33,803 nt of DNA from Actinomycetes bacterium (GTDB taxonomy: Bacteria; Actinomycetota; Acidimicrobiia; Acidimicrobiales; Acidimicrobiaceae), in assembly GCA_021786375.1 (NCBI GenBank), contig JAJYNL010000084.1, positions 66,022 to 99,824 of the forward strand. The letters are read 5' to 3'. Positions 7,506 through 28,012 of this stretch are shown here, one piece after another. Numbering within the stretch: position 1 is the first letter of the stretch; the number at the start of each line of letters is the position of its first letter. A program made the position numbers and the translations under genes. Under the pieces are notes generated by a model. That model saw nothing but the letters and a program-made list of their open reading frames with translations. It was not told the origin of the DNA and searched no databases.

Positions 7506-7601
7506 GCTCCGGCCGCTGCCCGCATCTTGGCGGGGGCGTGGCTTCGGCGAGGGGCGCAAGCGTCTTGGGTAGGCTTTCAGGGCTCCATTAGGCTTGGGAT
7601 A

Positions 7602-7622
7602 CGGGCGGGGGGTTCCCGCCCG
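7602..7622 (+). promoter_or_regulatory. Strong hairpin just upstream of the 7641 gene's ribosome site
   Basis: CGGGCGGG (7602-7609) and CCCGCCCG (7615-7622) form a perfect 8-bp GC stem with a 5-base loop. It ends 4 bases before the GAAGGAGGG Shine-Dalgarno stretch (7627-7635). No T-run follows, so it does not look like an intrinsic terminator. It may affect translation initiation or mRNA stability of the following gene. Confidence 0.5.
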
Positions 7623-7640
7623 GCTCGAAGGAGGGTGGCA

Positions 7641-7934
7641 GTGGCGTCACTGTCGCGCAAGGGGAGGCGCGTGGCGAGAATGGCCACCTGGGCACTGGTG
7701 GCAGGGTCCAACGTCGCGCTGCGCCCTTCGCTGTGGGGCATCGCATTCACCCAGCTGCTGGCATTCGCCCGCCAGGACTGGTTCGGTCGGCCTCCGTACC
7801 TGCCGGTGCCGGACATGCGTTACCTGAGGTTCCGGATGGAGACGGTGTATGGCAACGGAGACGTCATGCCGCCCACTCGCGATCTGCTGGAATACCTACG
7901 GTGGTGTCGCACGCAGCGCCGGCTGTGGCTATAG
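7641..7934 (+). CDS. Small conserved actinobacterial protein of unknown function
   Basis: This 97-residue protein begins at GTG 7641, 5 bp after GAAGGAGGG (7627-7635); longer in-frame starts would run through the hairpin. It has a basic N-terminus, a mildly hydrophobic middle (ATWALVAGSNVALRPSLWGIAFTQLLAFA, about 15-43) that may touch the membrane, and a C-terminal part PPYLPVPDMRYLRFRMETVYG followed by LLEYLRWCRTQRR. The YLRFR(M/L)xTxYG plus EYLxWCR pattern recurs in small hypothetical actinobacterial proteins as I remember them. No function is assigned. Confidence 0.7.
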   Translation: MASLSRKGRRVARMATWALVAGSNVALRPSLWGIAFTQLLAFARQDWFGRPPYLPVPDMRYLRFRMETVYGNGDVMPPTRDLLEYLRWCRTQRRLWL

Positions 7935-8064
7935 GATTTAGTTCGAAGCACGATGGAGCGCACCTTGGGACTCCGAGCTCTACATCGATGTGTAGCCCCA
8001 GGCCAAGGCCATGACTCGACTCGCCTTTTTCCCGACTGTCGCCTAGACGAGCTGAGTAGGTGAG

Positions 8065-8568
8065 ATGACGAGGGCTCTCGTGCTGAACGTAAGCTACGAA
8101 GCCCTCTCCGTCGTTTCCACGCGCCGTGCCCTCTCGCTCATCCTTTGTGACAAGGCCGAACTTCTCCACGACACCGGGTCGTACTTCCACTCCGAGCGCC
8201 AGGCGTTCCCCGAGCCCTCGGTGGTACGCCTGCTCTACTTCGTGAAGGTCCCGTTTCCGAAGCGAGTGGCCCTGACCAAGCGCGCCGTTTTTGCGCGGGA
8301 CAGCTACCGCTGTCAGTACTGTGGGGCCCCGGCGGAGAACATCGACCACGTGGTCCCGAGATCCCGAGGTGGCAGCCATAGCTGGGACAACGTCGTCGCA
8401 TCGTGCAAACCGTGCAATGCGCGCAAGGAGGACCGGCTCCTGCACGAGACCAACTTCGTGCTGAAAAGGATGCCCGGCCAGCCGCGGGCGAAAGCTTGGA
8501 TATGGCTGCTCGGGAACCCGCGCGAGGATTGGCTCCCCTACATCGGCGAGTCCTCCCTCTCCGCCTGA
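8065..8568 (+). CDS. HNH endonuclease
   Basis: This 167-residue protein is of the type common in actinobacterial chromosomes. The N-terminal part (MTRALVLNVSYEALSVVSTRRALSLI) is the conserved lead-in of this subfamily. The HNH zinc-finger nuclease motif lies at 80-125: Cys83/Cys86 (CQYCG), IDHVVPRSRGG with the catalytic His95, WDNVVASC with Asn109, and Cys114/Cys117 (CKPCNARK). All key residues are intact. These standalone proteins are chromosomal housekeeping-type genes rather than signs of an intron or phage, and no mobile-element context is seen. The start ATG 8065 follows AGGTGAG. Cellular role is unknown. Confidence 0.92.
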   Translation: MTRALVLNVSYEALSVVSTRRALSLILCDKAELLHDTGSYFHSERQAFPEPSVVRLLYFVKVPFPKRVALTKRAVFARDSYRCQYCGAPAENIDHVVPRSRGGSHSWDNVVASCKPCNARKEDRLLHETNFVLKRMPGQPRAKAWIWLLGNPREDWLPYIGESSLSA

Positions 8569-8598
8569 CGGCCCTTAGCGATCGGCTGGGGCGGGCAC

Positions 8599-8607
8599 TG
8601 GTATATT
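8599..8607 (+). promoter_or_regulatory. Extended -10 promoter element
   Basis: TGGTATATT matches TGnTATAAT with one mismatch. No good -35 is present, as is usual for extended -10 promoters. It stands about 270 bp upstream of the LplA-like gene start. The same TGGTATA form occurs before coxM at 20805. Confidence 0.5.
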
Positions 8608-8834
8608 CCATTAGGGTCCCGGCATATCCCGGCCGTCGGAGCCTCGATCCGGGGCCACAAAGATGGGGCGGTGTCGCCTGAGCAGTTCGCCGGGAAAGCC
8701 GGGCCGCCAAGGACAGATGCCAGAACCGAATCGAGAGAACGGGGGTCGCCGCCGGGCAGGATGGTCCGCTTCGATCACCAAGGCGGACCCAGGCGTGATC
8801 GTTCGCGTTGTGCTGGCCCGATCGGCGCCGTTCC

Positions 8835-8853
8835 CCCGGGCTTTGGGCCCGGG
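8835..8853 (+). promoter_or_regulatory. Leader hairpin upstream of the LplA-like gene
   Basis: CCCGGGC (8835-8841) pairs perfectly with GCCCGGG (8847-8853) across a 5-base TTTGG loop. It lies 12 bases before GTGGAG, the likely ribosome site. No T-run follows. Confidence 0.45.
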
Positions 8854-8877
8854 CGCCTCCGGGCGTGGAGCGCGGGC

Positions 8878-9570
8878 ATGACCGGCTTGGGCTTTGCCGT
8901 CCATGCGTTGGAGGCGAGCGCCTCCGATATTCACGCGCGCCACCGATCCGCACCGCTCGAGAGGCAGGTGTGGCTCTGCAACACCACCGCCGACGCTCTG
9001 ATCCTCGGCTCGGCGCAGAACCTTAATCATGGGCATGAGCGCTTCGTGGCCCGGCATGGCTTCGAGTTGGCGCGCCGCTCGTCCGGGGGGACCGGTGTTG
9101 TGGTGGTGCGAGGTGGGGCGGTGTGGATCGATATCGGCCTTCCGCCGGGGGATTCGTTGCTTGTCGACGACGTCTCGCGGTCCTTCGCGCCGGTCTCGCG
9201 GGCTTGGGCCGATGCCTTGGACCTGATCGGGGTGCATGGTGTCGAAACTTATTCGGGCCGCATGTTCAAGGGAGGCGAGCTTTCCGAAGTCTGCTTCGCC
9301 GGCCGCGCCTCAGGTGAGATCGTGTTCGATGGGCGCAAGCTGGTGGGTATGTCACAGCGCCGTACCGGCCACGGCGCTTGGTTCCACACCATGGCCTACC
9401 TGGCATTCCCAGCAGCGCTGAGTGCGGAAGCCCTGCTCCCGGGGCTCGATGGCGGCGCCGATAGGTTGGCGGCGTCGGTGACCGACCTGCCCGCAGCCGG
9501 TGCCCGGTGTGGTGCCGATTGCGCGAGGCTCCTGGCCGGTTCCATCGCGGCGAGCCTCTCCGCGCCCTAG
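8878..9570 (+). CDS. Lipoate-protein ligase A-like protein (BPL/LplA/LipB fold)
   Basis: LplA-type ligases attach lipoate or octanoate to lipoyl domains of 2-oxoacid dehydrogenases and the glycine cleavage system. From ATG 8878 the protein has 230 residues. Family motifs are the ligand-loop ARRSSGGTGVVV (66-77), GGAVWIDIGLP (79-89) and FAGRASGEIVFDGRKLVGMSQRR (140-162), where Lys154 in GRKLVG aligns with the lysine of the LplA NGRKI.G motif. The ATG is preferred because GTGGAG (8865-8870) lies 7 bp upstream; the upstream open frame to 8671 is low-complexity leader. No C-terminal accessory domain is present. It could instead be an octanoyl-transferase relative, or a non-catalytic member of this diverse family. 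Confidence 0.75.
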   Translation: MTGLGFAVHALEASASDIHARHRSAPLERQVWLCNTTADALILGSAQNLNHGHERFVARHGFELARRSSGGTGVVVVRGGAVWIDIGLPPGDSLLVDDVSRSFAPVSRAWADALDLIGVHGVETYSGRMFKGGELSEVCFAGRASGEIVFDGRKLVGMSQRRTGHGAWFHTMAYLAFPAALSAEALLPGLDGGADRLAASVTDLPAAGARCGADCARLLAGSIAASLSAP

Positions 9571-9679
9571 CTCAGCGGGGAGGCACCGCCCGCGGAGGTC
9601 ATTGCTCCGGGCTGCCACCCTCAGTGAAAAATCTCATGACGCGCCGTGATAAAACATGGCCCGATTTGGATCTTTGCCG

Positions 9680-9708
9680 TTGAAGGGTGGGTGAGAATGG
9701 TGTAGAGT
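9680..9708 (+). promoter_or_regulatory. Candidate mraZ promoter
   Basis: TTGAAG (9680-9685), a 17-bp spacer and TAGAGT (9703-9708) make a plausible sigma-70-type promoter, with the transcript starting near 9714 and a leader of about 40 bases. The core promoter lies inside the MraZ repeat array, as expected for autorepression. Confidence 0.4.
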
Positions 9709-9730
9709 GGTCCAAAAGGGATCAAAGTGG
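9684..9730 (+). promoter_or_regulatory. MraZ-binding repeat array (five 10-bp-phased repeats)
   Basis: Five 7-mers start exactly 10 bp apart: AGGGTGG (9684), AGAATGG (9694), AGAGTGG (9704), AAAAGGG (9714) and AAAGTGG (9724), each followed by a 3-base spacer. MraZ proteins are known to bind TGGG-containing direct repeats with a 10-bp period (E. coli), or AAAGTG(G/T) with N3 spacers (Mycoplasma), upstream of their own operon. The array ends 22 bp before the mraZ start and overlaps the likely promoter. Confidence 0.8.
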
Positions 9731-9752
9731 GTCCATAGAGCTGGGATCGGGG

Positions 9753-10175
9753 GTGAAAGTGACCGAAACGCCGTCGACTCGGTTCATCGGCACTCACGAA
9801 CACACCCTCGACGCCAAGGGCCGGCTCACGCTCCCTGCGCGATTCCGCAGCCTGCTTGGCGACGGATGCGTGGTGGCTCGCTCCCAGTACTCCGATGCCT
9901 GCCTGGCAGTGTGGAAGCACGAGGACTTCGAGCGCTTCTCCTTGCAACTCCTCTCCCAGGACATGGGTGATGAGTCCGTCCGCCGGCGTGTGCGCATCTG
10001 GTCCAGCGAGGCCTTTGAGGCCGAGATCGACGCCAACGGCAGGCTGGCCGTGCCGCAGCGCTTACGGGCATTCGCGGGTCTTTCGAAGGAAGTGCTTGTC
10101 ATCGGAGCGCTGGAGACCATCGAGTTATGGTCGCCCGAGAACTGGCGGAACTACCGGGGGAGCGAGGATGCCTGA
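9753..10175 (+). CDS. mraZ: MraZ transcriptional regulator
   Basis: MraZ is the double AbrB-like DNA-binding protein that heads the division and cell-wall cluster and regulates it. From GTG 9753 the protein has 140 residues, close to the family norm of about 143. It begins FIGTHEHTLDAKGRLTLPAR, with the first DxKGR motif at 20-24, and has a second half-motif EIDANGRLAVP (Asp93-Arg97). A further GTG at 9759 is an alternative start. The open frame back to 9687 would translate the MraZ-box array and is unlikely. The TGA at 10173-10175 overlaps the rsmH start by 8 bp. Confidence 0.95.
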   Translation: MKVTETPSTRFIGTHEHTLDAKGRLTLPARFRSLLGDGCVVARSQYSDACLAVWKHEDFERFSLQLLSQDMGDESVRRRVRIWSSEAFEAEIDANGRLAVPQRLRAFAGLSKEVLVIGALETIELWSPENWRNYRGSEDA

Positions 10176-11172
10176 GGCGCAACCAAGCGGCTTCGACTCC
10201 GCCTACCACGCCCCGGTGATGTGGCGGGAGGTCTGTGAGATCTTCTCCTCCAGCTCCGGAGTGGTGGTGGATGGGACACTCGGTGGGGGTGGGCACACCG
10301 CCGCGCTGCTTTCCAGCAACCAGGCCTTGGCGGTGATCGCCGTGGACCGCGATCCCGTGGCGATAGAGTTCGCCGGCGGCCGGCTGGCCGAGTTTGGGGA
10401 GCGTGTCGAGCTGAGGCGGGCGAGCTTCCATGCTCTCGACGAGGTGCTGGCGGACCAGGAAGTCCGCCATTGGATGGCCGATCGCCCGCTCGTAGGCGGC
10501 CTCTTCGACCTGGGAGTCAGCTCACGCCAGCTGGACGATCCCACCAGGGGCTTCTCGTTCCGGGAGGCGGGCCCACTCGACATGCGTATGGATCCGGCTT
10601 CCGGACTCAATCTGGCCGACTATCTGCGCCAGGTGGACGAGGTCGTGCTGGCGAGGGCCATCGCCGAGAATGGCGAGCCGCGCTTCGCCCGCACACTCGC
10701 CCGGCGCATCAAGCAGGCCATGGGCGCCGGAAGGATCACCACGACCTCGGATCTGCGTGACGTGGTGGCCGAGGTGGTGGGTCGCGCGTACGCCGGCCGG
10801 AGGATCGACCCCGCGACAAAGGTCTTCCAGGCCCTGCGCATAGAGGTCAACCAGGAGATGGAAGCTCTCGAGCAGCTGCTCGAGAAGATTCCCGCCGTTT
10901 TCGGGCCACCTGCGAGGGTGTGTGTGATCTCCTACCACTCCGGGGAGGATCAGCGGGTGAAGCGCGCCTTTGCCGCGATGACCGACGGCGGGTGCCGCTG
11001 CCCCAAGGATTTGCCCTGCGTCTGCGGGGCCCAAGTCGTGGCGCGCCGCCTAGGCGGAATGCACAGGCCCCGGGAGGACGAGGTACGCGCCAATCCGCGT
11101 GCTCGCTCGGCCAAGCTGCGGGCCGTTGAAATGATCGAGCCGGTTGCGGTGGCGGAATTGAGAGGGTTGTAA
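10168..11172 (+). CDS. rsmH: RsmH, 16S rRNA (cytosine1402-N4)-methyltransferase
   Basis: RsmH (MraW) methylates N4 of C1402 in the ribosomal decoding centre using S-adenosylmethionine. The 334-residue protein starts at ATG 10168, inside the end of mraZ. The family start AYHAPVMWREV (12-22) is followed by the SAM-binding motif VVVDGTLGGGGHTAALL (32-48). Further conserved parts are LFDLGVSSRQLDDPTRGFSFR, GPLDMRMDP, ALRIEVNQEMEAL and VISYHSGEDQRVKRAF. Near the C-terminus, CRCPKDLPCVCG is the Cys-rich segment common in this family. The TAA overlaps the ATG of the next gene by one base (TAATG at 11170-11174). Confidence 0.97.
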   Translation: MPEAQPSGFDSAYHAPVMWREVCEIFSSSSGVVVDGTLGGGGHTAALLSSNQALAVIAVDRDPVAIEFAGGRLAEFGERVELRRASFHALDEVLADQEVRHWMADRPLVGGLFDLGVSSRQLDDPTRGFSFREAGPLDMRMDPASGLNLADYLRQVDEVVLARAIAENGEPRFARTLARRIKQAMGAGRITTTSDLRDVVAEVVGRAYAGRRIDPATKVFQALRIEVNQEMEALEQLLEKIPAVFGPPARVCVISYHSGEDQRVKRAFAAMTDGGCRCPKDLPCVCGAQVVARRLGGMHRPREDEVRANPRARSAKLRAVEMIEPVAVAELRGL

Positions 11173-12149
11173 TGGCCGAGATCAGGCAGTTGCCCAGGGC
11201 GCAACGGCGTGGAGTCGGCTCCTTTGCCGACTGGGTCGCCATGCGCGAGGCGGAGCAGGAGGCGCTGGATCGCGTCCTGACGGCTGACATGCTGGCGGAG
11301 CACAGGCAGCGCGCCCGTTCGGCCGCGGTGGCACCACCCGAAGAGTCCCCGAAGCGTACCAAGCCCAGGGCGGTGCGCACTGCCACACCGCGCACCAAGG
11401 CCCATGCGGCGGTGCACTCCACCAAGCCTCGCATTGCGCGCGTGGAATCGACACCTTCTCGGCGTACGCAGGCCCGCCGTCTGGGCCCCACAGCACAACA
11501 TCGGATCCAGCGCCTGCGCACCGTCCCGACCGGCGCCGAGCTTCGCCACAACCGGCGCGTAATGCTGGCCGAGCGACTGATAGTCCTGCTCTCGGTGGCC
11601 TTCATTGCCGTTGGCGCACTGGTCTCGGTGGTGGTGCGGGCCGAGATTGCCAAGATGCAGCTGCATGCCGACACCATCCAGCCGGTGCTTTCCAGCCTGA
11701 ACAAGGAGAATGCCAACCTGACGGCGACCTACCAGCAGCTGAGTGCGCCGGCCAGGATCGCGGCCATTGCCCAGAGCCAGCTCCATATGGTCTTTGCCCC
11801 TGGCGGCGGCATCCCCGCCACGACCCAGCCCGGGTCCACCTACTCCGCCCAGGGCCAGCAGTACAGCTACTACTATTCGCCCTCCGGGGTGACGCCAACG
11901 CCGCCCACCACGGCCACCACCGCGCCACCTACGACGTCCACCACCGTGGCCGGCGCCGCGGCGCAGGCCTCGACCGCGACGACGACATCTGCCCAGGGTG
12001 GCCCTAAGGCCGGTGCGCCGACGACCGCCGCCGCTTCTGTCACCCCGCCCACCACCGCGCCGCCGACCACCACGCCTCCAAAGTCTCCGCCGACGACCTC
12101 CGGCCTGACGCTTGTCACACCCACCGGCACGGCGGGAGGAGCGGGCTAG
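11172..12149 (+). CDS. ftsL: FtsL-like divisome protein with long N-terminal and Pro/Thr-rich C-terminal extensions
   Basis: FtsL is a bitopic divisome protein that pairs with FtsB and activates FtsWI. Here it is identified by position between rsmH and ftsI and by architecture. A basic cytoplasmic part (1-130, very rich in Arg, Lys, Thr and Pro from 55) precedes one membrane segment (about 135-155) and a coiled-coil-like stretch (157-192, with EIAKMQ and SLNKENANL). Then comes the FtsL-like end SAPARIAAIAQSQLHMVFAPG (191-211). After it, residues 212-325 are a low-complexity tail of Tyr/Ser then Thr/Pro/Ala repeats. At 325 residues it is roughly two to three times the length of typical FtsL proteins. 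It starts on the TAATG overlap with rsmH and ends one base before ftsI. Confidence 0.82.
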   Translation: MAEIRQLPRAQRRGVGSFADWVAMREAEQEALDRVLTADMLAEHRQRARSAAVAPPEESPKRTKPRAVRTATPRTKAHAAVHSTKPRIARVESTPSRRTQARRLGPTAQHRIQRLRTVPTGAELRHNRRVMLAERLIVLLSVAFIAVGALVSVVVRAEIAKMQLHADTIQPVLSSLNKENANLTATYQQLSAPARIAAIAQSQLHMVFAPGGGIPATTQPGSTYSAQGQQYSYYYSPSGVTPTPPTTATTAPPTTSTTVAGAAAQASTATTTSAQGGPKAGAPTTAAASVTPPTTAPPTTTPPKSPPTTSGLTLVTPTGTAGGAG

Positions 12150-17963: not shown

Positions 17964-19367
17964 ATGGCCGTTGGCTTTGGAAAGGGAAAGGAGGCATCCG
18001 TGTCCAAGGGACGAGGAACTGCGGCGCCAAGGACCAGCGGGACAGCCAGGCCGGTCCGCGAGGCCCCGGGCCCTGGCCGTCGCGTGCTCTCCTTGGTGAG
18101 GGAGGCACCCGGGCCCGCGGGGCACGGGACCCCTTGGGCTTACATCGACCTCGACGAGCCCGGTGCCAGCCGCAAGGTGCCGGTGCGCGATGGGCTCTTT
18201 TCGCCTTCGCGGTCAACCGGTCTCAGTTTCGCGCTTTTGGTGCTGCTCGCCCTGCTTGTGCTGGTGGGTGCGGCAATGGTGCTCTCCACCAGCTTCGTGG
18301 CCAGCCTTGGCCCGAATGGTTCGGGTTCGCCGTTTGCCATCTTCGAGCGCCAGCTGGTATGGATCGTTGTCGGCTTCGCGGCCTTCTTTCTGGTTTCACG
18401 GGTGAACCCGCGCCGCATCGCCCCCGTCTCCCGTTTCCTTCTGCCTCCCGCGATCCTGCTTCTCCTGGTGGTGCTGGTTCCCGGCGTGGGCGTCACCGTC
18501 GGCGGCTCCAGCCGCTGGCTGGGTATCTCCTTTCTCCGCTTCCAGCCTTCCGAGATGGCCAAGGCGGCCGTGGTGCTCTACCTGGCCGGCTTCTTCACCC
18601 CGGCGGTGCCCGAGCGCCTGCACAAGCTCAAGGCGGCCGGCCCGGCCATCGGGCTGAGCGGCCTGGCCGCGGTGCTGGTCCTACTCGAGCCGGACATGGG
18701 GACAGCGCTCGTGATCGGCACCATCCTGCTCGGTGTGCTCTTCCTGGCGGGCATGCGCATGCGCACCTACGTGCCGTTCGTGACGGTGACCGTAGCGCTT
18801 GCCACCGTCGCGGCCCTGGCCCAGAGCTACCGGCGCAATCGCCTTCTCTCCTTCCTGCATCCCTGGAAGAACCGGCTTCTGTACTCCTACCAGGAGGTGC
18901 AGGGCCTGGTCGCGTTCGCGACCGGCGGGCTGCACGGGGTGGGCCTGGGCGCCGGCTCGGCCAAGTGGGGATATCTGCCGAACTCCCAGACCGACTTCAT
19001 CTACGCGGTGCTGGGCCAGGAGGCGGGCTTGATCGGCTGCCTGGTGGTTCTGGTCGCGCTGGCCGCCCTGACGGTGGTGATCATCAAGATCGGCCTCAAT
19101 GCCTCCAGCCGCTTCGAGTTCCTTTTCTGCTCCGGTGTGGCCATGTGGATCGGCGCCCAGACGCTCTTCAACATCGGCGCAGTGGTCGGAGTCCTGCCGG
19201 TTACCGGAGTCCCGCTGCCGCTTATATCCGCAGGAGGCACCTCGCTGGTGGTTCTCATGGCCGCTCTCGGGCTCGTGAACGGGACCGCCCGCCGCCCCGC
19301 GGAGCGTTACGACCGGGGGACGGCCCCTAACCACTCGATCAGGTCAGAGGCTCCAAGCGCGCGGTGA
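17964..19367 (+). CDS. ftsW: FtsW, septal peptidoglycan glycosyltransferase (SEDS family)
   Basis: FtsW polymerises lipid II into septal glycan strands in complex with FtsI. The 467-residue SEDS protein has a long basic cytoplasmic N-terminus (about 80 residues, Gly/Pro/Arg-rich) before the first membrane segment (86-108). Conserved segments include GGSSRWLGISFLRFQPSEMAK, LLEPDMGTALVI, YSYQEVQGLVAFATGG, NSQTDFIYAVLGQEAGLIG and PVTGVPLPLISAGGTSL. Two starts are credible: ATG 17964 with GGAAGGGG upstream, and GTG 18000 with AAAGGAGG 5 bp upstream, which removes 12 residues. It is the last gene of the cluster; no murG, murC, ftsQ or ftsZ follows. Its 3' end overlaps the convergent tryptophanase gene by 29 bp. 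Confidence 0.95.
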   Translation: MAVGFGKGKEASVSKGRGTAAPRTSGTARPVREAPGPGRRVLSLVREAPGPAGHGTPWAYIDLDEPGASRKVPVRDGLFSPSRSTGLSFALLVLLALLVLVGAAMVLSTSFVASLGPNGSGSPFAIFERQLVWIVVGFAAFFLVSRVNPRRIAPVSRFLLPPAILLLLVVLVPGVGVTVGGSSRWLGISFLRFQPSEMAKAAVVLYLAGFFTPAVPERLHKLKAAGPAIGLSGLAAVLVLLEPDMGTALVIGTILLGVLFLAGMRMRTYVPFVTVTVALATVAALAQSYRRNRLLSFLHPWKNRLLYSYQEVQGLVAFATGGLHGVGLGAGSAKWGYLPNSQTDFIYAVLGQEAGLIGCLVVLVALAALTVVIIKIGLNASSRFEFLFCSGVAMWIGAQTLFNIGAVVGVLPVTGVPLPLISAGGTSLVVLMAALGLVNGTARRPAERYDRGTAPNHSIRSEAPSAR

Positions 19368-20715
19368 AGTGGCGCAAGACCTTCGGCGCTTGGGTTATCA
19401 GGTAGCCGGGAAGGCTCTCAGCCCTTGACTTCACCTCGGTGCACACCTCGATGACATAGTCGATGTGGCTCTGGGTGTAGGTGCGCCGCGGGATCGCCAG
19501 ACGGACCAGCTCCATCGCCGCCGGCTTCTCGGTGCCGTCAGGCTGCATCCCGAACATGAGCGTTCCGATCTCGCAGCCGCGGACTCCGCCGACCTCGTAG
19601 AGCGCCACGGCCAAGGATTGGCCCGGGTACTGGAGTGGGTTGATGTGGGGGAGCATCTCCCTGGCGTCGATGTAGATTGCATGGCCGCCGTAGGGCATCA
19701 CAACCGGTATCCCTGCCTTGGTGAGGCCCTCGCCCAGGTAGGAGGTGGAGGCTATGCGGTATTGCAGATAGTCGTGGGAGACCGCCTCGGACAGGCCTTG
19801 GGCAACCGCCTCGAGGTCGCGGCCGGCCAGGCCGCCGTAGGTGGGGAAACCTTCGGTGAGTATCAGCATATTGCGGCACTGCGTGGCCATCTCCGGGTCG
19901 TTCATGGCCAGCCATCCGCCGATGTTGCCCAGGGGATCCTTCTTGGCGCTCATGGTCATGCCGTCGGCATAGCTCGCCATCTCCCGCACAATGTCTGCCA
20001 CGTCGGCGTTCGCGTAGCCCTCTTCGCGAAGCTTGATGAACCAGGCGTTCTCGGCAAATCGGCAGGCGTCCAGGAAGAAGGGGATTCCGTGGGCGTGCGC
20101 CACCGCCGAGACCTCGCGGATGTTGGCCATGGAGACAGGCTGACCGCCACCGGAGTTGTTGGTGATGGTGAGCATGACCACCGGGACGTTCTCGGCCCCG
20201 GTCTCGCCGATGAATGTCTCGAGGGCGGCGATGTCCATGTTTCCCTTGAAGGGATGCAGGGCCTTGGGGTCGTGCCCCTCGGCGATTACCAGGTCGACGG
20301 CGGTTGCACCGGTGAACTCCACGTTGGCACGGGTGGTGTCGAAGTGGGTGTTGGAGGGCACGGACCTGCCCGGGCCGCCGATGACGGAGAAGAGTATCTT
20401 CTCCGCGGCTCTCCCCTGGTGGGTCGGTATCACGTGGGCGAAGTCGAAGAGGTTGGTGACCGCGGCGTGGAAGATCTCCCACGAGGGTGAGCCGGCGTAG
20501 GACTCGTCGCCGTGCTGGATCGCCGCCCACTGGTCGCGGCTCATCGCCCCGGTGCCGGAGTCGGTGAGCAGGTCGATCAGAACCTCCTTGGCCGGGAGGT
20601 TGAAGACGTTGTAACCCGCTTTTGCCAGTGCCGCCCGGCGCTCGTCCTCGGTGGTGAGCCGGATCGGTTCCACCGAGTGGATCCGGAAGGGCTCGATGAC
20701 GGTCTTGAAAGTCAT
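19339..20715 (-). CDS. tnaA: Tryptophanase (tryptophan indole-lyase)-like beta-eliminating lyase
   Basis: This PLP enzyme would cleave L-tryptophan to indole, pyruvate and ammonia. The 458-residue protein aligns along its length with tryptophanase and tyrosine phenol-lyase: HGDESYAGSPSW, PTHQGRAAEKI, NNSGGGQPVSMANIREV, PFFLDACRFAENAWFIK, the PLP-lysine motif MSAKKDPLGNIGG, EGFPTYGGLAGRD and the C-terminal PKVLRHFTARL. Residues that separate the two enzymes favour tryptophanase. THFDTT keeps the Asp corresponding to E. coli TnaA Asp137 (Thr in tyrosine phenol-lyase), and GCEIG keeps the Ile corresponding to Ile396 (Arg381 in tyrosine phenol-lyase); Cys replaces the usual Val394. No TnaC leader peptide or TnaB permease gene is nearby. 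The gene stands alone, convergent with ftsW and divergent from coxM. Confidence 0.88.
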   Translation of the reverse strand: MTFKTVIEPFRIHSVEPIRLTTEDERRAALAKAGYNVFNLPAKEVLIDLLTDSGTGAMSRDQWAAIQHGDESYAGSPSWEIFHAAVTNLFDFAHVIPTHQGRAAEKILFSVIGGPGRSVPSNTHFDTTRANVEFTGATAVDLVIAEGHDPKALHPFKGNMDIAALETFIGETGAENVPVVMLTITNNSGGGQPVSMANIREVSAVAHAHGIPFFLDACRFAENAWFIKLREEGYANADVADIVREMASYADGMTMSAKKDPLGNIGGWLAMNDPEMATQCRNMLILTEGFPTYGGLAGRDLEAVAQGLSEAVSHDYLQYRIASTSYLGEGLTKAGIPVVMPYGGHAIYIDAREMLPHINPLQYPGQSLAVALYEVGGVRGCEIGTLMFGMQPDGTEKPAAMELVRLAIPRRTYTQSHIDYVIEVCTEVKSRAESLPGYLITQAPKVLRHFTARLEPLT

Positions 20716-20947: not shown

Positions 20948-21829
20948 ATGCAGGTTCCTGCGCCTGTGGAGTACGAGCGTGCCTTGAGCGTCGAGGAAGC
21001 CATTGCTCTGCTAGTCAAACATGGCTCCGAGTCGCGACTGATCGCAGGCGGCCACAGCCTACTGCCGATGATGAAGCTGCGTCTGGCCCGGCCCGAGGTG
21101 GTGATAGACATCAACCCGCTTGCCGGAGCGCTCTCCTACGTACGCCGGGAAGGCGACGAGTTGGCGATCGGGGCCATGACGCGCCATGCCGATCTCCTGG
21201 CTTCGGCCCTGGTCTCCGAACACGCGCCGATCATCGCCGAGGCCGAGCGGGTCATCGCCGACCCGGTGGTGCGCAATCGGGGCACCGTGGGAGGATCCCT
21301 CTGCCAGGCCGACCCCGCCGAGGACCTCTCCGCAGTCTTCGCCGCACTCGGGGCGACGGTGCGTATACGCGGTCCCCGTGGCGAGCGCAGCGTCGACATC
21401 GACTCCTTTCACACCGGCCCCTATACCACCGTGGTTGAGCCCGATGAGATCCTGACCGAGGTCCGGGTGCGGATACATCCCGGTGCCAGCAGCGCCTACG
21501 AGAAGGTGGAGCGAAGAGTGGGCGATTGGGCGATCGCTGCCGCCGGAGCGATGCTTCAGGTCTCCGGGGCGGCCATCACCTCGGCGCGCATAGGGCTGGC
21601 GGCCGTAGGCGCAGAGGCCTTCCGGGCCCCGCGCGCCGAGGCGCTGCTCTCGGGCAAGGAGGGCTCCCCCGAGCTGTTCGCTGCGGCCGGCGCCGAGGCG
21701 GGCAGGGAGTGCAACCCGCACTCGGATCAGCGTGGCCCCGAGGACTACAAGCGTCATCTGGTCTCGGTGCTGACCGAGCGCGCGCTCTCGCGCGCGTACG
21801 CCAGGGCTAGCGGAGGAGCAGCAAGATGA
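20948..21829 (+). CDS. coxM: CO dehydrogenase medium (FAD) subunit, CoxM
   Basis: CoxM carries FAD and passes electrons from the iron-sulfur subunit of aerobic molybdenum CO dehydrogenase to the quinone pool. From ATG 20948 it has 293 residues. The two FAD-binding motifs are AGGHSLLPMMKLRL (33-46) and TVGGSLCQADPAEDL (113-127). The C-terminal CO-dehydrogenase flavoprotein domain (EKVERRVGDWAIAAAGAML onwards) is complete. An in-frame GTG at 20942 is possible, but the G-rich ribosome site at 20937-20942 suits the ATG. The M-S-L gene order that begins here is that of form I CO dehydrogenase operons. The ATGA at 21826-21829 couples it to coxS. Confidence 0.92.
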   Translation: MQVPAPVEYERALSVEEAIALLVKHGSESRLIAGGHSLLPMMKLRLARPEVVIDINPLAGALSYVRREGDELAIGAMTRHADLLASALVSEHAPIIAEAERVIADPVVRNRGTVGGSLCQADPAEDLSAVFAALGATVRIRGPRGERSVDIDSFHTGPYTTVVEPDEILTEVRVRIHPGASSAYEKVERRVGDWAIAAAGAMLQVSGAAITSARIGLAAVGAEAFRAPRAEALLSGKEGSPELFAAAGAEAGRECNPHSDQRGPEDYKRHLVSVLTERALSRAYARASGGAAR

Positions 21830-22317
21830 GAATCGAGATGAACGTCAACGGCAGGCCGATGGCCGCCGAGGCGGAGGGGCGCACCCTGCTGGTGCACTTT
21901 CTCCGCGACACCCTGGGACTTACCGGCACCCACTGGGGCTGTGACACTACCAATTGCGGGGTGTGCGTGGTGTGGCTGGACGGCAAGCCGGTGAAGTCCT
22001 GCACCGTGCTGGCGGCCATGGCCGACGGACACGAGGTGCGCACCGTGGAGGGGCTGGAGGGCGAATCCGGGCTGGACCCCGTCCAGGAGGGGTTCATGCG
22101 CATGCACGGGCTGCAGTGCGGCTTTTGCACGCCGGGCATGATGATGACCGCGCGTTGGCTGCTCGACCAGAATCCCGACCCCAGCGAGACCGAGATCCGC
22201 GAGGCGATCTCCGGCCAGATCTGCCGCTGCACGGGATACGAGAACATTGTCCGGGCCGTCCGCTGGGCGGCCGAACACCCGCAAGGGGCTGACGAGAGCG
22301 AGGGGGTAAACGCATGA
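21826..22317 (+). CDS. coxS: CO dehydrogenase small (2x[2Fe-2S]) subunit, CoxS
   Basis: CoxS relays electrons from the Mo-Cu centre to the flavin through two [2Fe-2S] clusters. The 163-residue protein has the plant-ferredoxin-type cluster ligands Cys39, Cys44, Cys47 and Cys59 (GCDTTNCGVCVV, VKSC). The second, helical-domain cluster has Cys98, Cys101, Cys133 and Cys135 (QCGFCTPGMMM, ICRCTGYENIV). All eight cysteines are present and the length is normal. Both ends overlap neighbours by ATGA, so expression is expected to be tightly coupled to coxM and coxL. Confidence 0.95.
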   Translation: MRIEMNVNGRPMAAEAEGRTLLVHFLRDTLGLTGTHWGCDTTNCGVCVVWLDGKPVKSCTVLAAMADGHEVRTVEGLEGESGLDPVQEGFMRMHGLQCGFCTPGMMMTARWLLDQNPDPSETEIREAISGQICRCTGYENIVRAVRWAAEHPQGADESEGVNA

Positions 22318-24692
22318 CCACCGTCGAGGAGGGCAAGGCCCACGTCGGCTTCGGGCGGATGCTGCGCAAGGAGGACGCACGCTTCCTGCGCGGCAAGGGA
22401 AATTACGTTGACGACATCCGGCTGCCAGGGATGCTGCACGGCGCGATACTGCGCAGCCCGCATGCGCACGCCCGCATCCGCTCAATCGACACCTCGGCCG
22501 CCGAGGCGCATCCCAAGGTGAAGGCGGTGGTGACCGGAGCGACGCTGGAGACGCTGAACCTGGCCTGGATCCCGTCGCTCTCGCACGACGTGGTGGCGGT
22601 GCTGGCCACGGACAAGGTGCGCTTCCAGGGCCAGGAGGTCGCTTTCGTCGTGGCCGAGGATCGCTACTCGGCCAGGGACGCCCTCGAGCTCATCGATGTG
22701 GACTACGAGGTACTGCCACCTGTGGTGGATGCCAAGCGCGCTCTCGACCCGGACGCACCGGTCATCCGCGACGACATCGAAGGCAAGAAGGACAACTACA
22801 TCTTCGACTGGGAGGCGGGTGACAAGGCGGTCTGTGACGACGTCTTCGCCAAGGCCGATGTGGTGGTGTCCCAGGAGATGCTCTATCCACGGGTTCACCC
22901 CGCCCCGATGGAGACCTGCGGCGCGGTGGCCTGGATGGATCCGATCGACCAGAAGCTGACCATCTGGTCGACCACCCAGGCCCCACATGCGCACCGCACC
23001 CTCTATGCCCTGGTGGCAGGGCTTCCCGAGCACAAGCTCAGGGTGATCAGCCCCGATATCGGAGGCGGCTTCGGCAACAAGGTGGGCATCTACCCCGGTT
23101 ACGTCCTGGCCATCGTCGGCTCGATCCTCACCAAGGCCCCGGTGAAGTGGATGGAGGACCGCTCCGAGAACCTGATGAGCACCTCCTTCGCCCGCGACTA
23201 TCACATGCGCGGAGAGATCGCGGCCACCCGGGAGGGCAAGATCCTGGGCGTGAGGGTGGATGTGCTGGCCGACCACGGTGCCTTCAACAACACCGCCCAG
23301 CCCACCAAGTACCCGGCCGGTTTCTTCCACGTCTTCACCGGCTCCTACGACCTGGCCGCGGCTCACTGCCATGTGCGGGGCGTCTACACCAACAAGGCTC
23401 CCGGAGGTGTGGCCTACGCCTGCTCGTTCCGCGTCACCGAGGCGGTTTACCTGGTCGAGAGGATGGTCGACCGCCTGGCCCAGGAGCTGGGCGTGGACCC
23501 TGCCGAATTGCGCATGAAGAACCTTCTCCGCCCTGATCAGTTCCCGCATGTTACCCCAACCGGCTGGGAGTACGACTCGGGGGAGTATCCACGCGCCCTG
23601 CAGCTGGCAATGGACATCGCGGGCTACGACGAGCTGCGGCGGGAGCAGGCCGAGAAGCGCGCAAGGGGCGAGCTGATGGGTATCGGTATCAGCTTCTTCA
23701 CCGAGACGGTGGGCGCCGGGCCCAAGCGCCACATGGACATCCTCGGCCTGGGCATGGCCGACGGGTGCGAAGTTCGCGTGCATCCCACCGGCAAGGCGGT
23801 GGTGCGGCTATCGGTGCAGACCCAGGGCCAGGGACACGAGACCACCTTTGCCCAGATCGTCTCCGAGGTCACCGGCATACCCGCCGAGGACGTCGAGGTG
23901 GTGCACGGCGACACCGACAACACCCCCTTCGGCCTGGGAACCTACGGTTCGCGCTCCACCCCGGTCTCCGGGGCGGCGGCGGCCGTAGCCTCGCGGCGGA
24001 TCGTGGACAAGGCTCGTATAATCGCCGCCGCCATGCTGGAGTGTGCTCCCGAGGACCTGGAGTGGGATCGGGGAAGCTTCCACGTGAAGGGCGACCCCGG
24101 CACCTCCAAGACCATCCAGGAGGTGGCGCTGGCCGCCCACGGCCCTATGGATCTTCCCGATGGGGTGGAGGGCCACCTGGACGCGACATGCGTCTACGAC
24201 CCACCCAATCTGACCTATCCCTTTGGCGCCTACATCTGCGTGGTCGACGTCGACCCGGGAACGGGCAAGGTCGCCGTGCGCCGTTTCATCGCGGTGGACG
24301 ACTGTGGACCGCGCATCAACCCGATGATCGTGGAGGGCCAGGTGCACGGCGGCCTGGCCGACGGGGTGGGAATGGCGCTAATGGAAGCCATCGCCTTCGA
24401 CGAGGATGGCAACAACCTGGGTGCCTCCTTCATGGACTACCTTATCCCCACCTCGTTGGAGTGCCCGAGCTGGGAGACGGGGGAGACCGTCACCCCCTCG
24501 CCGCACCACCCGCTGGGGCTCAAGGGAGTGGGGGAGTCCGCAACCGTGGGATCGCCGCCTGCGGTGGTCAACGCCGTGATCGACGCGCTTGCCCCCTTCG
24601 GGGTGAAGCACGCCGACATGCCTCTCACACCCGCACAGGTGTGGCGGGCGATGCATGGCAACCCGATGCGCACGGACCTGGCCATCCAATGA
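22314..24692 (+). CDS. coxL: Form I aerobic CO dehydrogenase large (Mo-Cu) subunit, CoxL
   Basis: CoxL holds the molybdopterin cytosine dinucleotide and Mo-S-Cu active site that oxidises CO to CO2. It has 792 residues (Oligotropha CoxL about 809). The form I active-site loop AYXCSFR is present as AYACSFR at 367-373, with the copper-binding Cys at 370; form II proteins have AYRGAGR there. Other conserved parts are DIGGGFGNKVG (248-258), QGQGHETTFAQ, GTYGSRSTPVSG and the catalytic-glutamate motif GVGESATVGSPPAVVNAV (Glu741). The residue before the Cys is Ala rather than the Arg of the Oligotropha enzyme. ATGA overlaps tie it to coxS and to the next gene. Related form I-like hydroxylases with other substrates cannot be fully excluded. 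Confidence 0.92.
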   Translation: MTTVEEGKAHVGFGRMLRKEDARFLRGKGNYVDDIRLPGMLHGAILRSPHAHARIRSIDTSAAEAHPKVKAVVTGATLETLNLAWIPSLSHDVVAVLATDKVRFQGQEVAFVVAEDRYSARDALELIDVDYEVLPPVVDAKRALDPDAPVIRDDIEGKKDNYIFDWEAGDKAVCDDVFAKADVVVSQEMLYPRVHPAPMETCGAVAWMDPIDQKLTIWSTTQAPHAHRTLYALVAGLPEHKLRVISPDIGGGFGNKVGIYPGYVLAIVGSILTKAPVKWMEDRSENLMSTSFARDYHMRGEIAATREGKILGVRVDVLADHGAFNNTAQPTKYPAGFFHVFTGSYDLAAAHCHVRGVYTNKAPGGVAYACSFRVTEAVYLVERMVDRLAQELGVDPAELRMKNLLRPDQFPHVTPTGWEYDSGEYPRALQLAMDIAGYDELRREQAEKRARGELMGIGISFFTETVGAGPKRHMDILGLGMADGCEVRVHPTGKAVVRLSVQTQGQGHETTFAQIVSEVTGIPAEDVEVVHGDTDNTPFGLGTYGSRSTPVSGAAAAVASRRIVDKARIIAAAMLECAPEDLEWDRGSFHVKGDPGTSKTIQEVALAAHGPMDLPDGVEGHLDATCVYDPPNLTYPFGAYICVVDVDPGTGKVAVRRFIAVDDCGPRINPMIVEGQVHGGLADGVGMALMEAIAFDEDGNNLGASFMDYLIPTSLECPSWETGETVTPSPHHPLGLKGVGESATVGSPPAVVNAVIDALAPFGVKHADMPLTPAQVWRAMHGNPMRTDLAIQ

Positions 24693-25570
24693 GCAGGCTG
24701 GACCTGATGGCAAGGGCAAGCGAGCTGCGCGCCAGGCGCGTGCCCTTCGTGCTTGCCACCGTGCTTCGCGCCGAGGCACCTACCAGCGCCAAGCCCGGGG
24801 ATTCGGCGGTGGTGCTGGCCGATGGCAGCATCGAGGGATTCGTGGGCGGCTCCTGCGCCCAGGCCACGGTGCGGGCCGAGTCGCTGCGCAGTCTGGCCGA
24901 CCGTCGCCCCCGTATGGTCCTTATAGCCCCGGATGCCGTGGACGTGCCCGCAGGTGACGGTGTGGTGCGGGTCTCCAACCCCTGCCTCTCCGGCGGGACG
25001 CTGGAGATGTTCCTCGAGCCGACCCTGCCCGCCCCGTTGGTGCGTGTCTACGGGACCAGCCCGATCGCAGCCGCGCTGCGCGCAGGCGCGATCGCCCTCG
25101 GCTTCGACGCCGCCGAGGGTTTGCCCGGCGAGATGATCGCCGAGGAGACGGCGGCGGTGGTCGTGGCTACGCACGGCTTCGACGAGGAGGCGGTCATCGC
25201 CGAGGCGCTCCGCGCCGGGGTTCCCTATATCGGCCTGGTGGCCAGCCGCCGGCGGGCGGAGGGTGTGCTCGGGGCGATGGAACTCGGCCGTGCCGATCGG
25301 GCTCGGGTGCACTCCCCGGCCGGCCTTGACATAGGGGCGGGTTCGCCTGGCGAGATCGCCGTCTCCATACTGGCGGAGATAATCTCGCTCCGTCCCCGCG
25401 CCGAGGCCCGGCACGAGCCGGCGATGGCGGTTGACCCTGTATGCCAGATGGAGGTGGCGGCGGTAGAGTCGTCATTGCACACCGAGTTCGAGGGGCGCAA
25501 TTACTATTTCTGCGCCAAGGGCTGCCTGAAGGCGTTCTCCGCCGATCCCATGGTCTTTCTGGGGGGCTGA
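24689..25570 (+). CDS. XdhC/CoxF-family maturation factor fused to a C-terminal YHS domain
   Basis: XdhC-type proteins bind and protect the molybdenum cofactor and help sulfurate and insert it into xanthine dehydrogenase-family enzymes. This 293-residue protein has the N-terminal XdhC domain (PTSAKPGDSAVVLADGSIEG, 31-50; FVGGSCAQATV, 51-61; NPCLSGGTLEMFLEP, 97-111). The C-terminal Rossmann domain includes YIGLVASRRRAEGV (180-193) and HSPAGLDIGAGSPGEIAVSI (208-227). Residues 246-293 form a YHS domain (AVDPVCQMEV, YYFCAKGCLKAFSADP) with Cys252, Cys275 and Cys279, a small module linked with metal handling in copper pumps and other proteins. It starts on the ATGA overlap with coxL, so it is the fourth gene of the cox operon and probably matures CoxMSL. 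A role in copper supply is inference. Confidence 0.88.
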   Translation: MSRLDLMARASELRARRVPFVLATVLRAEAPTSAKPGDSAVVLADGSIEGFVGGSCAQATVRAESLRSLADRRPRMVLIAPDAVDVPAGDGVVRVSNPCLSGGTLEMFLEPTLPAPLVRVYGTSPIAAALRAGAIALGFDAAEGLPGEMIAEETAAVVVATHGFDEEAVIAEALRAGVPYIGLVASRRRAEGVLGAMELGRADRARVHSPAGLDIGAGSPGEIAVSILAEIISLRPRAEARHEPAMAVDPVCQMEVAAVESSLHTEFEGRNYYFCAKGCLKAFSADPMVFLGG

Positions 25571-25607: not shown

Positions 25608-27305
25608 TTGCATGAGCTGAACGAGCAGGGATCGAAGTCGATTCGGCGCATGCTAACCACCGCCGCCGTCATGGCACTTGTTGTCGCCTTAACCGTGCTC
25701 TACTCGGCCTTCGAAACCGCCTCCCATCGCGACGAGCAAGCCCTTTCCCAGGAGGTTGGCAACGCATCCGGGCTGATCGAGAGGGTGCCAAGTGTTGTAG
25801 CCGGCGTGTCCACTGACGGTACCCGGGTGAGGATCACCCCTTCTGCCGCCTTTGCCTTCACCAATGTCTGCCGGGCCTTTGGTGTCGCCATCGTGGTGCT
25901 GCCCGGTTACTTCAACCCGGTGCCAGAGCCCGCCAAGGGCCTCGCCCAGCTCACCACCCAGGCCGCGGCCACCTCCTCCTCTGCCCGCTTCGAGCCGGCC
26001 GCGGGGCACGTCCGCTACTGCGGTAGCCGTCTCGCGGGGAGCGGTGCCATTCGCTATCAATATGTCAAGCCGGCGAACTCCAAGGTCCCGGTAGCCACGC
26101 TCGAGGTTGCCAAGCGAGGGGAGAACTCGACCTCGCTGCTGGGAGAGGCGGCCAGGCAGGACTGGTGGCTGGTGCCGATGGTCTTTCTGGTGCTGGCGCT
26201 CGGCTTCTGGCGCATGCGCTCCCTGACCAGGAAGGAGACGCTCGGCCTCTCAACTGCTCAGGTGATCGGACTGCTGCAGGAGCAGGAGGCGCTCCTCAGG
26301 GGGATCTCCGAGGGGGTGATCGGCTGCGACCGTGACGGGGTGATCCGCTTCGTTAACACCGAGGCTAGGCGCCTGCTGAACCTGCCGGCAAACGCGGTGG
26401 GCAGGCCAATCCGCCATGTAGTACGGGGCCGCCGGCTGCGCCAGATCCTCACCGGCGAGATACCCGGCCGCGACCTGCCGGTGGTGGTGGGGCAGTCGAT
26501 ACTCTCGGTCTCGCGCATGAGCGTGGAGCGCGACGAGATGCATCTCGGCTTCGTCATCACCGTCTCCGATCGCACCGAGTGGGAGGGCCTCTTGCGCGAG
26601 CTGGACGGCATGGTCGGCATGACCGAGGCGCTCAGGGCCCAGGCGCACGAGTTCTCCAACAAGATCCACACCATCGTCGGCCTGATTGAGCTGGGTGAGG
26701 TGGAGGAGGCGGCCTCCTTTGCCATGAACGTCTCGGCGCGGCGGGAGGACGCCGCCGAGCGTGTCGAGTCCATCGCCGACCAGATGCTCAAGGCGCTCAT
26801 TCTGGCCAAGGGAGCAGTCGCCTCGGAGAAGGGCGTCGAGCTGATCCTGGAGGACGGCTCCTACCAGTGCGGGAAGCTCCACAACCAGTTGGACGTGGTG
26901 ACCCTGCTCGGCAACCTCATCGACAACGCCCTGGATGCGGTGATGGAGGGGCGGGCAACGCGCCGTGGGCCACAGGGTGAGGGATGGATATCGGTATGGA
27001 TGGCTACTCACGGCCCCGACCTGGAGCTGAGAGTCACCGACTCAGGGCCCGGGGTGGCGCCGGAAGTCCTACCCTCCATCTTCGTCGACGGCTTCTCCAC
27101 CAAGAGCTCCAAGGGCGGCTACCGCCGCGGCCTGGGACTGGCCCTGGTTGCCCAGATCGCCTCGGGCTACAATGGCACGGTGAAGGTCGAGAGCGTTCCG
27201 GGCGCATCTTTCGAGGTGGTGCTGCGCAACGCGGTGGAGCCTGGCGGCGAGGAGCCACTGGACTCCATGGAGCTGCTCGAGGAGCCGGCCGAGGCCGGGG
27301 GATGA
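25608..27305 (+). CDS. CitA/DcuS-like membrane sensor histidine kinase
   Basis: This 565-residue sensor has a membrane segment at about 15-33 and an extracytoplasmic sensing domain at 35-185 with two cysteines (Cys88, Cys138). A second membrane segment (187-201), a cytoplasmic PAS domain (about 226-325) and a kinase core follow. The phosphoacceptor is His347 in AHEFSNKIH, the form found in the CitA/DcuS family of carboxylate sensors. The ATPase domain has NLIDNALDAV, DSGPGV and GLGLALV. The start is a TTG at 25608 behind a G-run (25594-25598); ATG 25650 would remove 14 residues. It lies 37 bp after the XdhC-YHS gene and shares an ATGA with the regulator. Its signal is unknown; position suggests carboxylate or trace-gas metabolism. 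Confidence 0.9.
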   Translation: MHELNEQGSKSIRRMLTTAAVMALVVALTVLYSAFETASHRDEQALSQEVGNASGLIERVPSVVAGVSTDGTRVRITPSAAFAFTNVCRAFGVAIVVLPGYFNPVPEPAKGLAQLTTQAAATSSSARFEPAAGHVRYCGSRLAGSGAIRYQYVKPANSKVPVATLEVAKRGENSTSLLGEAARQDWWLVPMVFLVLALGFWRMRSLTRKETLGLSTAQVIGLLQEQEALLRGISEGVIGCDRDGVIRFVNTEARRLLNLPANAVGRPIRHVVRGRRLRQILTGEIPGRDLPVVVGQSILSVSRMSVERDEMHLGFVITVSDRTEWEGLLRELDGMVGMTEALRAQAHEFSNKIHTIVGLIELGEVEEAASFAMNVSARREDAAERVESIADQMLKALILAKGAVASEKGVELILEDGSYQCGKLHNQLDVVTLLGNLIDNALDAVMEGRATRRGPQGEGWISVWMATHGPDLELRVTDSGPGVAPEVLPSIFVDGFSTKSSKGGYRRGLGLALVAQIASGYNGTVKVESVPGASFEVVLRNAVEPGGEEPLDSMELLEEPAEAGG

Positions 27306-28012
27306 GTATGGATTCGATCCATGGAGCCGGTCCGGGCGCCAATGTGCGAACCCTGATCGTAGATGACGACTTCCGCGTCGCCCAGCTGCACGGCGCCTAC
27401 GTCGACCGTATCGACGGCTTCGAAACGTGCGGATACGCCAATACCGGGGGCCTTGCCATCCAGGCGGCGGAGGAACTCCACCCCGACCTGGTTCTGCTCG
27501 ACCTCTACCTGCCCGATACCGACGGCCTGAGCGTCCTACGCACGCTGCGCCAGAGCGAACCGCCCCGCCCGGACGTCATCGTGATCACCGCTGCCAGGGA
27601 TGCCGCCAGCGTGCGGGAAGCGATGAAGTGCGGGGCAATCCACTACATAACCAAACCCTTCGACCTGCGCAGCCTCACCGAGCGCCTTCACGCCTACGAG
27701 CTAATGCGCAACGAGTTCGAAACCTCCTCCGATCTGGACCAGGCCCAGATCGACCGGCTTTGGTCCGCGATGCGCACGTCGCCGGACGCCCGGCTGCCGA
27801 AAGGGCACTCGCCTCACACCATGGAGCTGGTGGTTTCCACCCTTAGGGCGGTGAACGAAAAGCTGTCAGCGGACGAGATCTCCAGGCGCACCGGCCTCGC
27901 GCGCAGCACCACCCAGCGCTACCTCTCCTATCTGGTGAAGCTGGGTAGGGTCAACCTGACCATGCGCTATGGTGCGAGCGGAAGGCCGGAGCACCTCTAC
28001 TTCTGGGAGTAG
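27302..28012 (+). CDS. CitB/DcuR-like response regulator
   Basis: This 236-residue regulator starts on the ATGA shared with the kinase gene; a second ATG at 27308 is close. The receiver domain (15-133) has the acidic pair Asp21/Asp22, phosphoacceptor Asp67 in LLDLYLPD, Thr96 and Lys118 in ITKPF. The C-terminal part, LSADEISRRTGLARSTTQRYLSYL (about 182-205, given here as LSADEISRRTG and ARSTTQRYL), is a winged-helix DNA-binding domain of the CitB/DcuR class, ending GRPEHLYFW. With the kinase it forms a complete two-component system. No target site could be identified; the cox promoter region is the nearest candidate. The stop lies 4 bp from the convergent enoyl-CoA hydratase gene. Confidence 0.92.
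   Translation: MSMDSIHGAGPGANVRTLIVDDDFRVAQLHGAYVDRIDGFETCGYANTGGLAIQAAEELHPDLVLLDLYLPDTDGLSVLRTLRQSEPPRPDVIVITAARDAASVREAMKCGAIHYITKPFDLRSLTERLHAYELMRNEFETSSDLDQAQIDRLWSAMRTSPDARLPKGHSPHTMELVVSTLRAVNEKLSADEISRRTGLARSTTQRYLSYLVKLGRVNLTMRYGASGRPEHLYFWE

Follow-up and report, generated by a model that had tools for sequence, protein, structure and literature searches.

Form I carbon monoxide dehydrogenase (CODH) requires copper that is bridged to molybdenum, and the question raised by the locus described here is which protein brings the copper to that site and with which part of its structure. The window, a stretch of 33,803 nucleotides on contig JAJYNL010000084.1 of an actinomycete of the family Acidimicrobiaceae (assembly GCA_021786375.1, 119 contigs, 2.83 Mb), contains a four-gene operon in the order coxM-coxS-coxL-coxF-type gene, and the last gene encodes an XdhC-type protein fused to a C-terminal YHS domain. 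We find that this XdhC-YHS fusion is the usual fourth gene of form I cox operons in a sample of Actinomycetota and, in light of its relationship to CoxF, propose that its product loads copper onto the CODH active site.

A sequence-only reading of the stretch had described the fourth gene as an XdhC/CoxF domain joined to a YHS domain with three cysteines (Cys252, Cys275 and Cys279) and coupled to a form I coxL by an ATGA overlap. The description was borne out: three Pfam domains score above their cut-offs, the cysteines are at the positions given, Asp249 probably supplies a fourth ligand, and the overlapping coxL belongs to form I by both its TIGR02416 match and its AYACSFR motif (Table 1). Cys56 of the N-terminal domain is invariant in 13 of 13 aligned sequences. 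The AlphaFold model has a predicted local distance difference test (pLDDT) score of 89.5 for the whole fusion protein and 92.5 for the YHS domain alone, and the fold of the XdhC part matches the solved XdhC proteins 2we8, 2we7 and 3on5; the VIA-align structure rows mostly cover residues 113-238 and are uninformative on the YHS domain.

In order to see how the fusion is distributed, an even sample of 396 Actinomycetota genomes was searched with a profile built from 12 fusions, on which all YHS calls below are based, and with the CoxL of the window. From 63 coxL rows of at least 54% identity, 54 intact form I loci with flanks were analysed; left out were the window's own row, three at or close to contig edges (G165, G087, G076) and five fragments (G217, G072, G332, G206, G181), and in G076, G206 and G332 the form I coxL is followed by a CoxF that is cut by the contig end. 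In 50 of the 54 loci a CoxF on the same strand begins between -12 and +97 bp relative to where the coxL frame ends, a distance for which the CoxF start was estimated by means of the domain model. YHS is carried by 46 of these 50 CoxF; L118, L122 and L125 are without it and L158 is cut by the contig end. As for the four coxL without an adjacent CoxF, a fused copy is found on the opposite strand a few kb off in L127, the contig edge falls just inside the CoxF gene in L130, and the genomes of L149 and L157 (G149 and G245) each have a further form I locus in which CoxF does adjoin coxL. The coxL of L149 and L157 is a second form I copy (AYRCSFR) whose coxM lies on the other strand; the stretch contains no CoxF. 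When 60 relatives were searched, all 14 best-match loci (L009-L022) adjoined form I coxL, and none of the stretches read around two strong matches at contig ends (G024:C72 and G029:C72) was flagged for a form I coxL.

The sequence-only reading had asked whether the fusion is equally frequent beside copper-free molybdenum hydroxylases, and it is not: against 46 of 50 at form I coxL, YHS was found in none of 40 XdhC open reading frames (ORFs) away from form I coxL, the best score with filters off being 1.8 bits. These 40 controls were taken in rank order among the matches listed, skipping G218 (the second piece of its CoxF) and G277:C11; 13 of their stretches hold a coxL-like ORF, none with AYXCSFR. 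With the contig-cut case excluded, the ratio of fused to unfused proteins is 46:3 at form I loci and 0:40 elsewhere (Fisher p 3.7e-22, a value that counts proteins related by descent and not independent events). The intact fusion is therefore restricted to form I loci among those examined.

To judge from its sequence, the window gene is an orthologue of coxF. XdhC proteins were split by their match to the CoxF-type N-domain into 68 CoxF-type sequences and the rest, after removal of duplicate or near-identical loci (L004, L005, L009-L011, L015) and of loci at contig ends (L018, L021). All but two of the 68 share their contig with a complete or partial form I coxL, and the two, L162 and L165, are at contig ends. 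A tree was built from the Rossmann part (149 sequences, 142 columns); in it the 68 form one clade (support 0.972) together with 10 plasmid CoxF, including that of Afipia (Oligotropha) carboxidovorans OM5, and none of the 71 other XdhC proteins, CoxI included, falls inside it. The clade also has a signature, derived in this analysis and not from the literature: a C-x-S-x-G loop is present in 84 of 85 CoxF, a count that includes both members of the near-identical plasmid pairs of Bradyrhizobium and Caballeronia, and it is missing from all 30 of the other unique XdhC ORFs in which an N-domain could be detected; 29 of these 30 have CGG/CGA in its place. The window copy holds Cys99 in this loop; it neither groups with the sampled XdhC/CoxI proteins nor has their CGG loop. 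According to a review, CoxF is closest to the XdhC proteins of other CODH operons (PMC2997495).

What is known of CoxF function comes from O. carboxidovorans. CODH from a coxF::km strain contained 0.043 mol Cu, 1.85 mol Mo and 1.40 mol sulfane sulfur per mol, wild-type enzyme has 1.47-1.62 mol Cu, and sulfuration was assigned to CoxD (PMC4240915). Because the mutant enzyme is short of copper and retains molybdenum and sulfur, the tested role of coxF is in copper. These genetic data identify the orthologue as a copper-loading factor and agree with the copper role that the sequence-only reading had proposed for the fusion; its further suggestion, that the same protein supplies sulfurated molybdenum cofactor (Moco), is weakened by an enzyme that keeps its Mo and sulfane sulfur without Cu and by the assignment of sulfuration to CoxD.

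The OM5 protein (280 amino acids, encoded on pHCG3) shares with the window protein the XdhC N-terminal and Rossmann domains, the form I cluster, the clade and the C-x-S-x-G loop, but it is without YHS, it has RGD and RHGxR sequences that are absent from the window protein, and its gene sits after coxD and coxE, whereas the window coxF is directly after coxL. The published model has CoxF acting by phytase activity and RGD-integrin docking, with M107CPSHGTM as a putative copper motif (PMC4240915). Among the 85 CoxF, RGD occurs in 11, RHGxR in two and the exact MCPSHGTM in three, and the window protein has none of the three. Since only two and 11 of the 85 have them, the phytase and RGD motifs are, from their distribution, unlikely to be part of a general CoxF mechanism. 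Closer in layout is WP_143714800.1 from a megaplasmid of Thermomicrobium roseum, an XdhC-YHS protein encoded straight after form I coxL with no adjacent coxD or coxE; it differs in length (336 amino acids, 43% identity) and is annotated just as an XdhC family protein. The XdhC of Rhodobacter capsulatus also has the XdhC domains and a molybdenum hydroxylase partner, but it is described as a protein that binds and inserts Moco and, together with NifS4, sulfurates it, with no copper; its sequence is not in our sample, in which the XdhC/CoxI proteins are outside the CoxF clade and without C-x-S-x-G. No account of an XdhC-YHS or CoxF-YHS fusion was found in the open-licence literature, a body that most subscription journals lie outside.

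The candidate metal ligands of the YHS domain, Asp249, Cys252, Cys275 and Cys279, are invariant in 12 of 12 aligned fusions, and in 67 fused domains they are kept in 65, 66, 66 and 67, respectively, the exceptions being Paraburkholderia (Asn for Asp) and the degenerate domain of Deinococcus AJ005; identity to the window YHS is 32-58% in 15 of 16 aligned domains. In the window's own genome, the fusion is the single match in a Pfam YHS search at E<=1e-6. The invariant ligands in the 12 fusions and this single match genome-wide indicate that the presence of YHS in the fusion is not due to chance. The ligand spacing, D-x2-C-x22-C-x3-C, is identical to that of the YHS domain of the Mycobacterium phlei adenylyl cyclase (D178, C181, C204, C208), which is likewise C-terminal on an enzyme domain and for which copper-specific activation is described (PMC4626032). 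That domain is on a cyclase, though, and is described as a sensor, not as a delivery protein. In Foldseek the YHS domain, a query of 55 residues, came closest to the YHS regions of phenol hydroxylase and of toluene monooxygenases and to L24e, at E values (0.1 to 2) that fall short of significance for so small a domain, and the sequence profile gave phenol hydroxylase (9e-7) and L24e (0.006). By our proposal, the window YHS would bind copper and feed it to the XdhC part.

Taken together, these data make it on balance probable, with considerable doubt left, that CoxF loads copper onto the sulfurated Mo site of apo-CODH and that the YHS is its built-in copper-capture domain. CoxD, for which there is a likely gene elsewhere in the genome, would sulfurate the site beforehand. 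The YHS domain would then take a copper ion via Asp249, Cys252, Cys275 and Cys279 and keep it near the XdhC part, which would dock on folded apo-CoxLMS, and the copper would be handed over, perhaps via Cys99 of the C-x-S-x-G loop and/or Cys56, so as to end at the Mo-SH sulfur and the active-site Cys of the AYACSFR motif of CoxL.

The fusion is not peculiar to the window genome, an idea that was rejected as many Actinomycetota loci carry it. Outside Actinomycetota the search covered plasmid records alone, from which 19 were drawn out of 60 listed of 245 with coxL-like matches, one of the 19 (Nonomuraea) being itself an actinobacterium. Each of these 19 records, all with a coxL of at least 54% identity, has a CoxF match among the matches listed; CoxF could be read in 17, and in Roseivivax THAF197b and A. 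carboxidovorans OM4 the tblastn match ends before the YHS region. YHS-fused CoxF is present in Thermomicrobium, the haloarchaeon Natronorubrum, Deinococcus (degenerate), Paraburkholderia and two Caballeronia. One plasmid hit, H24, was discarded as a fusion since its alignment reached the YHS region but its ORF stops after the Rossmann part, and adaptation to acid waters was rejected as an explanation since the fusion occurs in a haloarchaeon, in Deinococcus and in Burkholderiaceae.

On a tree of 82 CoxF sequences (L158 excluded), YHS is present in 68 and its presence changes six times, whereas shuffled presence gives 13.2 changes on average and a minimum of 10. Distances between YHS domains follow those between the XdhC parts (Mantel r 0.56, permuted maximum 0.10, n 68), as expected for parts that were co-inherited. 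The simplest reading is that the fusion is old and was later lost more than once, including in the lineage that led to the model organism; the direction of these changes we infer. A further step, which we offer tentatively and hold to be somewhat less probable than its opposite, is that the YHS domain was the original entry point for copper in bacterial and archaeal CoxF, the Oligotropha form being derived, with copper generally passing from YHS by way of the C-x-S-x-G loop on to the Mo-S-Cu site and with phytase and RGD motifs that are not general.

The form I operon of the window is without coxD, coxE and coxG. Their absence, which the sequence-only reading had pointed out, thus holds for the operon, but it does not hold for the genome: another contig (L204, G000:C98) carries coxS-L-M of form II type (AYRGAGR), after which come ORFs that read by sequence as CoxD, CoxE, XdhC/CoxI, a MocA-like protein and CoxG, the CoxE being the sole one confirmed by a family model (Pfam, 198.7 bits). 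The products of this form II cluster could also act, in trans, on the form I enzyme. CoxE-family proteins were found in 58 of the 60 genomes searched, and this, together with the D-, E- and G-like ORFs of the form II contig, leaves little weight to the claim that the missing genes enlarge the task of the fusion. In 30 of 55 form I loci CoxE is encoded no more than 8 kb from coxL; of the 25 remaining loci, several are on short contigs. Replacement of CoxE by YHS was considered and rejected, as 26 of the 30 loci with CoxE within 8 kb carry YHS.

Several observations weigh against a built-in copper domain. The copper function of CoxF has been established in one organism and with insertion mutants, and copper alone brought back only 14% of activity in the coxF::km enzyme (PMC4240915); because copper alone restored just this fraction, part of the sulfur in that enzyme may not be normal. 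YHS is absent from all 10 alphaproteobacterial CoxF that were read, and is thus dispensable in the best-studied CoxF, from the CoxF of Nonomuraea and from four actinobacterial CoxF whose genes adjoin form I coxL (L118, L122, L125 and L020), while in that of Deinococcus sp. AJ005 p380k (L213, CoxF at 6992-8053) the first Cys is lost. Relatives of the TRASH/YHS group can bind other metals: they reportedly hold Cd, in ribosomal L24e, or no metal, in the YHS of toluene-4-hydroxylase (PMC4626032). The domain is also weak as a family match in some of the proteins: at E<=0.01 Pfam YHS recognises 44 of the 53 fused tails tested and misses nine, the protein of G096 has only a TRASH family in Pfam, and at E<=1e-6, where 35 genomes gave 12 matches with six at CoxF positions, Pfam sees the CoxF YHS in six of the 21 genomes in which the 12-fusion model does and misses 15. 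An orphan XdhC_C-YHS fragment of 135 amino acids without the N-domain (L228, G277:C11, 2642-3046) has no cox genes in the 9 kb read around it, and no form I coxL was found in genome G277; we take it for a CoxF that has decayed or was misassembled. Finally, the association with form I represents one clade with about six changes of presence or absence, and not many independent fusions.

It could be that the YHS is a structural (zinc) module that stabilises CoxF, or a docking module that places it on CoxLMS or CoxE, and that copper is bound by the XdhC part alone. The loss of YHS from proteins in which the C-x-S-x-G loop stays would agree with this, as would its nearest solved relatives (phenol hydroxylase, the YHS of the toluene monooxygenase alpha subunit and L24e), none of which is named a copper chaperone. 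We nevertheless consider it rather unlikely, given that the fusion is confined, among the loci examined, to those of the copper-containing form I enzyme and that Asp takes the place of the first ligand, which is also the case in the copper-responsive domain of M. phlei, whereas L24e has Cys there. The same M. phlei domain, through which copper specifically activates the cyclase (PMC4626032), and its identical ligand spacing raise the prospect of a copper sensor that gates the XdhC part without passing copper on. Such a sensor is improbable in our estimation, since it would require a separate copper carrier, none of which is evident in the four-gene operon (carriers elsewhere were not searched for), and Thermomicrobium shares the compact layout.

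The full version of the sequence-only reading, in which one factor binds and sulfurates Moco and also delivers copper, draws on R. capsulatus, where XdhC binds Moco and NifS4 sulfurates it (PMC2997495), on the resemblance of the Rossmann part to the Moco carrier 2iz6 (Z 9.5, root mean square deviation 2.5, 106 residues), one among many Rossmann folds, and on the finding that sulfide and dithionite were required before Cu restored most of the coxF::km activity (PMC4240915). The coxF::km enzyme with its full Mo and 1.40 sulfane S argues in the opposite direction (PMC4240915), as do the position of CoxF outside the clade of other XdhC, its different Cys loop and the CoxD-like ORF elsewhere in the genome, and we give this version little credence. 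It is very improbable that the link to form I reflects shared ancestry only, from a single early fusion that persists with little function. The one clade, with six YHS changes against a shuffled average of 13, the losses in several lineages and the decayed-looking orphan fragment are what shared ancestry would leave behind, but the ligands are kept in 65-67 of 67 domains while the identity of the domain drops to 32-58% (15 of 16). A copper-capture role for the YHS in loading CODH remains the reading that we prefer.

Further observations concern the YHS region itself. In L213 the fold region of the YHS is kept, the DxxC half is gone and CxxC replaces CxxxC. Two of the YHS-less CoxF, L118 (ORF 10471-11460) and L125 (ORF 8515-11856), end in Cys/His tails, HCAAHGH and GGGCCGHGSG, respectively, and the haloarchaeal CoxF (L212, 6983-8122) has SCCGGG in its linker; these are possible substitute or extra metal sites. 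Frames of about 500-650 amino acids with two or three YHS-like matches each were seen in G057:C78, G012:C64, G034:C62 and G027:C18. The orphan fragment L228 is followed by an ORF identified by sequence reading as a resistance-nodulation-division (RND)-type transporter.

The compact four-gene layout is also found in Acidithrix and Thermomicrobium; the Acidithrix ferrooxidans stretch (L007) is unchanged, where compared, in genome G002, which is assigned to the genus of the window. A DcuS/DcuR-type pair begins 37 bp past coxF (25608-28012). The near relatives L004 and L005 also have a kinase 3' of CoxF, and L042 has a kinase and then a regulator; the Acidithrix stretch that was read showed no homologue. 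The pair may act as a regulator that responds to CO or copper. A tryptophanase-like beta-eliminating lyase gene (19339-20715, minus strand) is oriented divergently from the cox operon and is in the same place in Acidithrix (75.5% identity).

Table 1. Features of the cox operon, of the CoxF-type protein and of the downstream gene pair; positions are those of the window.
Feature	Position	Strand	Evidence and remarks
coxM, flavin adenine dinucleotide (FAD) subunit	20948..21829	+	Pfam; ATG chosen to match the L007 homologue
coxS, iron-sulfur subunit	21826..22317	+	Pfam
coxL, form I CODH large subunit, AYACSFR	22314..24692	+	TIGR02416 1347 bits, cut-off 991
ATGA overlap, coxL stop / coxF start	24689..24692	+	
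coxF-type gene (XdhC + C-terminal YHS, 293 amino acids)	24689..25570	+	ORF, Pfam, clade with Afipia carboxidovorans CoxF
XdhC_CoxI PF02625, residues 14-77, Cys56 (GGSC)	24728..24919	+	57.7 bits, cut-off 24.3
N-P-C99-L-S-G-G-T loop (C-x-S-x-G)	24977..25000	+	Aligns with M107CPSHGTM, a putative copper motif in the CoxF of O. carboxidovorans
XdhC_C PF13478 Rossmann domain, residues 147-231	25127..25381	+	68.8 bits, cut-off 29.7
YHS PF04945, residues 248-291, candidate ligands D249, C252, C275, C279	25430..25561	+	42.0 bits, cut-off 30.3
DcuS-type sensor histidine kinase, neighbour; cox-system membership not shown	25608..27305	+	TTG start as listed, uncertain
DcuR/CitB-type response regulator, neighbour, ATGA overlap with kinase; cox-system membership not shown	27302..28012	+	

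The copper-insertion model that we found in print comes from one organism. Most of the CoxF examined have a conserved candidate copper site that the CoxF of this model organism lacks, and the two motifs central to the published model are rare among them. The XdhC-YHS layout suggests a simple route for copper into CO dehydrogenase.

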